From a virus: a DNA stretch of 37,163 bases. Shown here piece after piece: positions 34,556 to 37,163 of the stretch; positions within the stretch are counted from its first letter, which is position 1, and every line of letters begins with the position of its first letter. A model generated the notes under the pieces. The model saw nothing but the letters and a program-made list of their open reading frames with translations, searched no databases and was not told where the DNA came from. Both the position numbers and the translations under genes were made by a program. Location of the stretch: positions 1 to 37,163 of IMG/VR virus record IMGVR_UViG_3300025424_000005. One strand, 5' to 3'.

Positions 34556-35317
34556 TTAGATTAATTTGTTGCGAATACGGTAAAACTCAAGTAATCGGAC
34601 AAAACATTCCCATCCCAAATCCAAGTCGGATGGGTCTATAGGGATTAGTTTAACCTTATTTTGCTTGGCATTGACATACAGAATGGCGCAATCCGCATTT
34701 GGCATTTTTAAACCCTGTCTGTAAGCCGCCAGTTGCATCTGATGGTCAAACATTACATCAACTTTATCTAGGTCTTTTTCTGTGGTTTTTACATCACAGA
34801 CCGCCCCATTGAAACCGACATATGGCTTGGCGTGTAAATCCACCTTGCCGCCAAACTTATCATTGCCAAAACTATGTTCTGGAAGCCATGCACAAGCACT
34901 AAAATGGTCTTGTAAGGCTTTTTCTACTTCAAAGCAATACAAAGGTACTTGTGGAAGATAAACACCTTCCATAAACGATTCTATGATGCCGTGAATATTT
35001 GTACCCCGTTCTGCGGCTTGTTTGCTAGTTTCTCGCGAATCTTGCATAACACGGGTAAGCCAATCAGATTCCGATTCATTAGGAAATCTGGGCAAAGTTA
35101 AAGCGGATAGCAATAACTGTTCGTTTTTCCACCGAGTTAATCCAGGGCGATCTATCTGCTGGATGATTGTGGTTACTGACGGTACTAAATTTAGTTTTTT
35201 TGCATCCCGCAAAGTTGTATTGCGTTCAACCCCATTCGCACCGATTATGCGATAGGCTGGTGTACCGTTGGTTTCGTACCAATGGCCTGATTCTGCATTA
35301 TTGTCTTTTACTATCAT
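34556..35317 (-). CDS. PD-(D/E)xK exonuclease, RecB/Cas4-like
   Basis: 253 residues with a GGGGGAAT ribosome site. The motifs are in order: RGTNIHGIIE (H109), FGGKVDLH (D160), AVCDVKTTE (D175, K177) and HQMQLAAYRQ (Q195, Y199). These define the RecB/Cas4-like PD-(D/E)xK exonucleases used by phages in recombination or nucleotide recycling. It is near the SSB-like gene, the usual pairing. No annealing protein is recognised nearby. Confidence 0.85.
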   Translation of the reverse strand: MIVKDNNAESGHWYETNGTPAYRIIGANGVERNTTLRDAKKLNLVPSVTTIIQQIDRPGLTRWKNEQLLLSALTLPRFPNESESDWLTRVMQDSRETSKQAAERGTNIHGIIESFMEGVYLPQVPLYCFEVEKALQDHFSACAWLPEHSFGNDKFGGKVDLHAKPYVGFNGAVCDVKTTEKDLDKVDVMFDHQMQLAAYRQGLKMPNADCAILYVNAKQNKVKLIPIDPSDLDLGWECFVRLLEFYRIRNKLI

Positions 35318-35621: not shown

Positions 35622-36233
35622 CTAGAATGGAACATCATCATCAACAATCGGATTTTGGTCAACGCTATTTGACCATTCCGCTGATTTCTTAATAATGTCT
35701 TGTACCCACGGCCACAATTTCTCAAAAGAATCTTTTGTGTATTTCTTTAAATCAAACAAAACAATTTCGTTATGGGTTTTAGGGAATCCAGCTTTAACAA
35801 TCATGGATGGAACTTGTGATAAAGCATCTAAGTTGGCGTATGTTTTGCCATTCCATTGATTGTGTACCACATTCACCATTGCCCATTTATCCAACATAGC
35901 CTTCATATCAAACGGCAAATCGACACCTTTAACCAACTTCTTGCCTTTCCAGCTTTCAATGTCTAAACGCAATCTTGCCGCTTCATTCATTGAAAAGGTG
36001 TATTTCTTATTAATCACCAATGGTTTGCCTTCAATTTCTAATGGGCCATTGCTATCTTCACCAAACAATTCAAAGCTAATCATTACTTTGTGTTGTTGTT
36101 TTGCAGATGGTTGACCATTCTCGATAAAATTTACCGTCTGGTGTCCTAAATCGATAATGCTAAAACATCTACCCAGATAGCTACCTGGTTCAATCTTTCT
36201 AAATTCTTGAGTTGGTGTATCGTCAATAATCAT
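35622..36233 (-). CDS. Single-stranded DNA-binding protein-like
   Basis: 203 residues. An OB-like beta core (SYLGRCFSIIDLG ... HKVMISFELFG ... KKYTFSMNEAARLRLDIESWKGK ... WAMVNVVHNQWNGKTYANLDAL) matches the phage SSB-like family that copies gp2.5-type function. The last residues, VDDDVPF, reproduce the acidic C-terminal tip by which SSBs bind partner proteins. It would protect ssDNA in replication and recombination and cooperate with the exonuclease downstream. Confidence 0.8.
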   Translation of the reverse strand: MIIDDTPTQEFRKIEPGSYLGRCFSIIDLGHQTVNFIENGQPSAKQQHKVMISFELFGEDSNGPLEIEGKPLVINKKYTFSMNEAARLRLDIESWKGKKLVKGVDLPFDMKAMLDKWAMVNVVHNQWNGKTYANLDALSQVPSMIVKAGFPKTHNEIVLFDLKKYTKDSFEKLWPWVQDIIKKSAEWSNSVDQNPIVDDDVPF

Positions 36234-36459: not shown

Positions 36460-36489
36460 TTGCACCTTTTTTAGTTTTGTGTTTATAAT
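36460..36489 (+). promoter_or_regulatory. Sigma-70-like promoter for a small RNA
   Basis: TTGCAC (36460-36465), 18 bases, TATAAT (36484-36489). The best promoter match in the divergent region. Transcription would begin near 36496 and meet the terminator at 36622. Confidence 0.55.
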
Positions 36490-36495
36490 CACATC

Positions 36496-36623
36496 AGCGG
36501 AGTGGAATCTGTGTAGTTTTTTGGCTAGGCGGGCTCTTAAGGCCTGATCTGAGTGTTTATTAAATGATCCTAAGCCCATTTACTAAGCAATTCCATCTTA
36601 GATCAGACCTTAAGGGCTTTTTC
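36496..36623 (+). ncRNA. Candidate ~128-nt phage small RNA
   Basis: It lies between a promoter (TTGCAC-18-TATAAT) and an intrinsic terminator, and has no open reading frame. Besides the terminator stem, GGGCT (36531-36535) could pair with AGCCC (36573-36577), and TGGAAT (36503-36508) with ATTCCA (36590-36595). The second pairing crosses the terminator stem, so alternative folds or a pseudoknot are possible. No match to a known RNA family is recognised. Confidence 0.45.
36533..36622 (+). terminator. Long-stem intrinsic terminator
   Basis: A 21-bp stem pairs 36533-36553 with 36597-36617, with one C-A mismatch and two G-U pairs, and encloses a 43-nt loop. TTTTT (36618-36622) follows directly. 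It should stop rightward transcripts well before the gene at 36899. Confidence 0.75.
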
Positions 36624-36635
36624 TATTTCTGCTGG

Positions 36636-36816
36636 TTCTGATTGGCGGCTCTAACGACATCGTAGCGATCAGAATACAAGCGTTACTAGTAGGGTAAGTG
36701 GATGTAATAGCGCAAGATCGGTGGCGAAGTTAGTGCCGATTCCACGAAAGACTGACGGGTTCTGCGATTCCGAGAAGGAACACAGTTGAAGGCAAATCTA
36801 GGTAGGCTAGGTTTGC
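36636..36816 (+). ncRNA. Densely structured RNA region, five consecutive hairpins
   Basis: No plausible gene, but five helices follow one another. H1: 36636-36644 with 36666-36674 (9 bp). H2: 36680-36686 with 36704-36713 (7 bp, 3-nt bulge). H3: 36716-36721 with 36736-36741. H4: 36751-36754 with 36783-36786, stacked on 36759-36762 with 36778-36781. H5: 36792-36801 with 36807-36816 (10 bp, one wobble, 5-nt loop). It may be a structured leader or an independent RNA, or part of a replication origin. Checked for tRNA features: not convincing. Confidence 0.45.
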
Positions 36817-36842
36817 TCATCCTCAAAGGAACTTGTAATACA

Positions 36843-36864
36843 TAACTAAGATAGTTACTATACA
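36843..36864 (+). promoter_or_regulatory. Operator-like dyad overlapping a -10 box
   Basis: TAACTA-AGA-TAGTTA (36843-36857) is a perfect inverted repeat placed 1 base before TATACA (36859-36864). It lies 35 bases upstream of the early gene at 36899. The geometry fits a promoter that a dimeric regulator can block, though no repressor gene is recognised. Confidence 0.45.
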
Positions 36865-36898
36865 AACTTAACTTCTGTCTAATAACAAAGGATAAATT

Positions 36899-37163
36899 AT
36901 GAAAATCACAGTAGAACACATGGAAGAATTGCCAGATGGCGGTGCAATTTGTGTAGTGCATTATGATGAGGAAGCCTTACAGTTTTTGGTACAAAAAGGC
37001 GTAGTTGCGGCAATCAAAGAAGGTATAGAACAGGAGAAAGAATGTTTGAGGAATTCTACAAAAAATACCCCCGTAAGGTGGCTAAAAAGGATGCTGAAAA
37101 AGCATGGAAAAAACTTAGCCCAGAAAATCGACAGCTTGCTATTAAAGCTATCGACTTACATAT
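36899..37163 (+). CDS. Small phage early protein, first gene of the rightward arm (continues across the junction)
   Basis: ATG at 36899 follows a strong AAGGATAAATT ribosome site. The protein begins MKITVEHMEELPDGG and the first ~48 residues look like a compact acidic phage protein ending around EQEKE. I know no function for it. The frame does not close there. It runs through the junction and stops at base 272 of the window start (145 codons), overlapping the next gene, which begins at 37042 in another frame, by almost 300 bases. The extra ~95 residues are lysine-rich and low in information, so only the N-terminal part may matter. It is the first gene after the 483-bp regulatory region and probably opens the early + strand operon. 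Confidence 0.65.
   Translation, partial: MKITVEHMEELPDGGAICVVHYDEEALQFLVQKGVVAAIKEGIEQEKECLRNSTKNTPVRWLKRMLKKHGKNLAQKIDSLLLKLSTYI
37042..37163 (+). CDS. DnaT/O-like replication protein, 5' part (joins 2..358)
   Basis: ATG at 37042 is preceded by AGGAGAAAGA, a very good ribosome site. Joined across the circle the product is 126 residues. It starts MFEEFYKKYPRKVAKKDAEK, matching the familiar 'F..FY..YPrKv.K..A.kaW' block found near the C-terminus of phage replication initiators and DnaT/DnaD-like helicase loaders. The window boundary splits the gene artificially. Confidence 0.8.
   Translation, partial: MFEEFYKKYPRKVAKKDAEKAWKKLSPENRQLAIKAIDLH
37065..37163. repeat. Terminal direct repeat, right copy
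   Basis: Exact copy of bases 1-99. Removing one copy gives a 37,064-bp circle in which the reading frame beginning at 37042 runs on into the frame ending at 358. Confidence 0.95.

Follow-up and report, generated by a model that had tools for sequence, protein, structure and literature searches.

A phage RNA of the Betaproteobacteria-1 family (RF02932) with two predicted pseudoknots and twin variable boxes

Introduction

What is encoded by the 181 nt at 36636-36816 of this virus record, a non-coding stretch packed with stems between a leftward recombination operon and rightward replication genes, and what might it do for the phage? The window, by which we mean the whole 37,163 nt of DNA that were analysed, is the entire virus record, and its 99-bp direct terminal repeat (1-99 and 37065-37163) implies that the record is circular or complete. 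The original prediction, made from the letters alone, was of five consecutive hairpins in a non-coding region into which no tRNA would fit, possibly a new phage RNA. The non-coding region and its five stems are borne out, and ARAGORN likewise finds 0 tRNA or tmRNA genes in the window.

Results

A cmscan search of the whole window returned a single RNA, a match to RF02932 ("Betaproteobacteria-1") at 36635-36760 on the + strand that spans model positions 1-120 of 120 and scores 94.6 bits against a gathering score of 49.4 bits; no other family reached threshold. The match takes in the first 126 nt, roughly the first two thirds of the 181-nt stretch, and the consensus hairpins P1, P2 and P3 are all kept, with compensatory changes. 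The same cut-off is exceeded by 43 of 44 homologous records. On this comparative evidence we conclude that the stretch is a genuine structured RNA and a member of an already catalogued family: the expectation of a structured phage RNA holds, but not its novelty. Nor does the conserved RNA end at 36816, since it continues to about 36832; two relatives hardly differ from the window over 36635-36832, while the upstream hairpin diverges. The Betaproteobacteria-1 RNA was reportedly described by Weinberg in 2017; we found no assigned function for RF02932, and our literature search gave no usable description of the family.

Homologs were collected from viral and genome collections with the core pattern GGTGGCGAAGYTAGYGCC, which matched at least 119 viral stretches and 52 genome stretches. 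The P3 partner is carried by 156 matches of both scans, and 16 matches were left out, including a few that are probably real copies truncated at the end of a contig. The RNA is found in more than 100 viral contigs. Used as a DNA query for near or distant matches, the window matched none of the phage records; the sole phage-record relative found, Acidovorax phage AP1, an isolate that infects Paracidovorax, was reached by querying with other family members.

The covariation proposed as a check is clearly present. In 71 structure-aligned homologs, a structure of P1, P2, P3 and two pseudoknots (PKa and PKb) has 91.9% of its cells paired, compared with 64.1% after shuffling, double changes occur in 26 of 32 base pairs, and the covariation score is 0.707, compared with 0.184 after shuffling and 0.09-0.12 after sliding. 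PKa and PKb alone score 0.671 against 0.174, and the covariance model behind the alignment had been fitted to neither pseudoknot. An alignment-free swap test agrees for the five helices P1, P2, P3, PKa and PKb, with P3 weakest because it hardly varies, and G-U pairs at several positions indicate that the RNA is on the + strand. Folding energy, the other proposed check, gave the opposite answer: the minimum free energy (MFE) of the 181 nt falls inside the shuffled range (z -0.21; 74 of 200 shuffles were as good) and by itself would not have supported a structured RNA. Pseudoknots, though, are invisible to the MFE calculation.

Comparison of the homologs shows the P3 loop engaged in two pseudoknots with upstream segments, by which P2 and P3 are interlocked (Table 1). 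The five stems are P1-P5, and they do not form the plain row of hairpins originally drawn. The predicted 10-bp stem at 36792-36816 is exactly P5 (36792-36801 with 36807-36816), and its arms covary. A stacked helix of ACTG/CAGT and GTTC/GAAC, in contrast, finds no support: in nearly all homologs ACTGAC (36751-36756) pairs instead with GTTAGT (36729-36734), and GTTC/GAAC is not conserved among them. A closing helix between TGAAGG and the box 2 region was rejected, as it shows no covariation.

Table 1. Coordinates of the RNA, its parts and its surroundings in the window.
Feature	Position	Strand	Evidence or remark
Exonuclease-like gene	34556-35317		Leftward operon
PHROG_862 protein	35622-36233		Leftward operon
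Promoter-like TTGCAC-18-TATAAT	36460..36489	+	Read from sequence; good -10, weak -35
Rod-like hairpin with U-run, terminator-like	36531..36622	+	Directly 5' of RNA; z -4.45
Whole conserved structured RNA (Betaproteobacteria-1 and 3' extension)	36635..36832	+	RF02932 match; 3' extension conserved in homologs, near-invariant in close relatives
P1 hairpin	36635-36644 with 36666-36675	+	10/10 pairs changed on both sides; 93.3% of cells paired
P2 hairpin	36680-36685 with 36708-36713	+	6/6 pairs with double changes; 86% of cells paired
PKa pseudoknot	GUGGA 36698-36702 (P2 loop) with UCCAC 36741-36745 (P3 loop)	+	Covariation and swap test; double changes in 5/5 pairs; 86.7% paired
PKb pseudoknot	AUCGG 36717-36721 with CCGAU 36736-36740	+	3 covarying and 2 invariant pairs; 93.1% paired
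Most conserved core, GGUGGCGAAGYUAGYGCC	36720..36737	+	Search pattern; invariant alignment columns
P3	36729-36734 with 36751-36756	+	98.8% of cells paired; 2 pairs with double changes
P4 stem	Around 36760-36764/36783-36790 (span 36760..36790)	+	Arms covary; swap test 0/2000
P4 apical hairpin	UUCC 36768-36771/GGAA 36777-36780	+	Read from sequence
Box 1, variable sequence X = AAGGAAC	36775..36781	+	Identical to box 2; P4 apex
P5 hairpin, 10 bp, loop GUAGG	36792..36816	+	Predicted fold; arms covary, 0/2000 permutations
Box 2, second copy X = AAGGAAC	36826..36832	+	Just 3' of P5; coupled with box 1
88-aa ORF	Start 36899	+	Downstream of RNA
Replication initiator	Start 37042, continues 2-358 across record ends	+	PHROG replication initiation matches, both halves

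The two boxes match each other within one RNA and not between RNAs, a coupling that in 68 non-redundant RNAs was equalled by 0 of 5000 permutations. At least 6 nt are common to both boxes in 48 of the 68 RNAs, whereas swapped pairs reach this in 14% of cases; for at least 8 nt the figures are 18 of the 68 and 0.9%. The boxes of four RNAs found later (L242, L258, L266 and L270) share at least 7 nt each, their strings being AACGGGTAACA, GAGTAGTG, TCAGTGT and CAGGGAT. The window's X occurs nowhere else in the phage genome, so that the window offers no repeated target. An intramolecular switch in which the boxes compete for the 5' strand of P4 found no support, box 2 not covarying with that strand. 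Given boxes that are identical, not complementary, and this lack of competition, the simplest reading is an outside partner or pairing of the RNA with template DNA.

In its genomic setting the RNA keeps company with replication genes. A recognised one lies within 3.5 kb in 41 of the 56 viral loci with enough flank, and in 40 of those 41 all replication genes are co-directional with the RNA. Its placing takes three forms: after a Cro-like gene or rod terminator and before a replication initiator; after a ParB-like, helicase and primase set, as in phage AP1; or ahead of a helicase-primase. One contig, L214 (IMGVR_UViG_3300020042_005735), carries a pair of divergent helicase-primase modules separated by two RNA copies, themselves divergent. 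The promoter-like sequence of the window is mostly conserved in two relatives and falls below the threshold of a consensus scan. A U-tailed rod similar to that of the window immediately precedes the RNA in 21 of 43 viral loci, compared with 1-4 of 43 at control positions, and looks like a second conserved structured element. Box 2 is followed by an AT-rich inverted repeat at 36834-36866 (TTGTA...TACAA, TAACTA/TAGTTA), missing in the relative L003, which is possibly the operator named in the original prediction.

The RNA also occurs as a separate locus in chromosomes of Burkholderiales and Rhodocyclales; the chromosomal relatives accepted as real, on the strength of the core and the 3' arm of P3, belong to these groups. 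Upstream of the core, the Paraburkholderia and Caballeronia copies have about 140-200 nt in common, including a GTATAC element; downstream of it the shared stretch is about 165 nt. These copies have no conserved neighbour gene, and their neighbours are often convergent. This sharing of flanks but not of neighbours weighs most in favour of a free RNA. A search for defence genes around the chromosomal copies gave no recurring defence family, and a role as an island attachment site was rejected: partial copies exist, but their breakpoints and order are inconsistent. Two of the partial copies, L138 and L173, have the same starting point, 20 nt before the core, and another, in L202, lies directly 3' of a DnaE2-like gene. 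By hand count, 12 of 17 genomes searched have a Ku, SRAP or DnaE2-like gene no more than about 15 kb from a chromosomal copy, a neighbourhood seen in the Paraburkholderia/Caballeronia loci L177, L178, L182, L184, L186, L189, L193, L195 and L202; LigD likewise recurs near those copies. This proximity may be explained by shared descent of one region. Divergent sister RNAs with the core TGGCGAAGMTAGAGSC (L198:1581-1701, L199:9980-10280 and L200, - strand, about 10000) occur in the same Burkholderiales genomes, and L198 also matches the covariance model built here.

Discussion

Why should a phage RNA carry the same variable sequence twice? We tentatively favour, at less than even confidence, a trans-acting non-coding RNA that is released from the early replication-operon transcript and whose twin boxes bind one partner. 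Polymerase moving rightwards would read through the upstream rod terminator and transcribe an RNA of about 200 nt together with the early genes of the replication operon; the RNA would then fold and be released or protected as a free RNA working in trans. The two copies of X would serve one partner, which may be a protein or a nucleic acid, as a two-site docking element, and differences in that partner between phages would drive the paired change of the boxes. With competition for the P4 5' strand unsupported, an outside partner is what is left, and the chromosomal copies, with their own shared flanks and no conserved neighbour gene, argue for action in trans. Against a free RNA, the RNA in phages is embedded in a co-directional operon that leaves it hardly any space for a promoter of its own, an arrangement that fits a cis element equally. 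The lack of a further copy of the window's X in the phage genome also counts against this reading.

Such an element could modify RNA polymerase, as do the HK022 put RNA and lambda nut: as an early segment of the rightward operon's transcript, it would help polymerase to pass terminators into the replication genes. We consider both the general idea and this course of events rather unlikely. The position is suitable, after a promoter-like site or Cro-like gene, beside a terminator-like rod and before replication genes, the HK022 putR site likewise lying downstream of its promoter, about 270 nt from the PR start site (PMC9378689), and a pair of similar boxes could serve as binding sites for a phage-specific N-like factor. 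The rod terminator, however, is upstream of the RNA, and the window has no excess of terminators downstream. Nearly all matching virus records of one sample have one copy, not one per early operon (among them only G024 and G030 have two), in another group the primase gene precedes the RNA, and the stand-alone chromosomal copies lack a conserved downstream operon.

The identity of the boxes bears more directly on a replication-origin RNA, a transcript that stays paired to template DNA as an R-loop or primes replication. Identity, not complementarity, is what RNA-DNA pairing in cis would need: as RNA, box 1 has the sequence of the non-template strand at box 2 and so could base-pair with the template strand of that site, and replication initiator, helicase or primase genes recur nearby. 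An identity of 6-11 nt is short, however, and the free-standing chromosomal copies are hard to reconcile with an origin, so that we regard this as improbable. The boxes could also be guide and target, box 1 RNA pairing with template DNA at the identical box 2; we give this little credence, and equally little to the proposal that box 2, about 45-75 bp downstream, would then be the site of a programmed cis R-loop by which phage DNA replication is started or controlled. If true, the guide and target arrangement would more generally define an RNA of a new kind, one whose recognition element is duplicated and able to evolve. A role as 5' leader or riboswitch-like element, governing how the gene after it is translated, would suit the window's phage family, in which the RNA precedes the 88-aa ORF and the replication initiator, but the gene that follows is not conserved from group to group, the neighbours of chromosomal copies are convergent, and the existence of free-standing relatives speaks against a leader that serves one gene and nothing else; the chances of such a role seem slim. 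That the hairpins arose by chance and have no function, as an MFE no better than that of shuffles would allow, is already refuted by covariation well above the shuffled and slid values, as well as opposed by the Rfam match, and has next to no probability.

The presence of RF02932 in more than 100 viral contigs, mostly beside replication genes, gives concrete, testable handles on this family, as do the double-pseudoknot core and the duplicated variable box. Should the boxes be recognition elements, they would make this RNA a phage regulator or replication RNA that is widespread and of a type not yet described.

How does it compare with known systems? GOLLD and ROOL are, like it, structured phage or prophage RNAs with elaborate secondary structure and a function of unknown kind, but they are much longer, at about 660-830 nt, and often lie near tRNA islands (PMC12286853), whereas the window has no tRNA; membership was rejected, RF02932 alone among Rfam models having reached threshold. 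The HK022 put RNA is similarly a phage RNA of an early transcript, 3' of an early promoter region, but it comprises about 70 nt and two stem-loops (PMC9378689). The window RNA, at about 200 nt with five stems, two predicted pseudoknots and free-standing copies in chromosomes, departs from it in size and stem-loop number and was not assigned to it. The closest likeness is to RF02932 itself, with a full-length match above the curated cut-off, P1-P3 in common and betaproteobacterial copies in the genome collection. Compared with the RF02932 covariance model only, the conserved RNA described here is about 70 nt longer, taking in P4, P5 and box 2, and its anatomy, as read from the homologs, goes beyond that model in its two pseudoknots and twin boxes.
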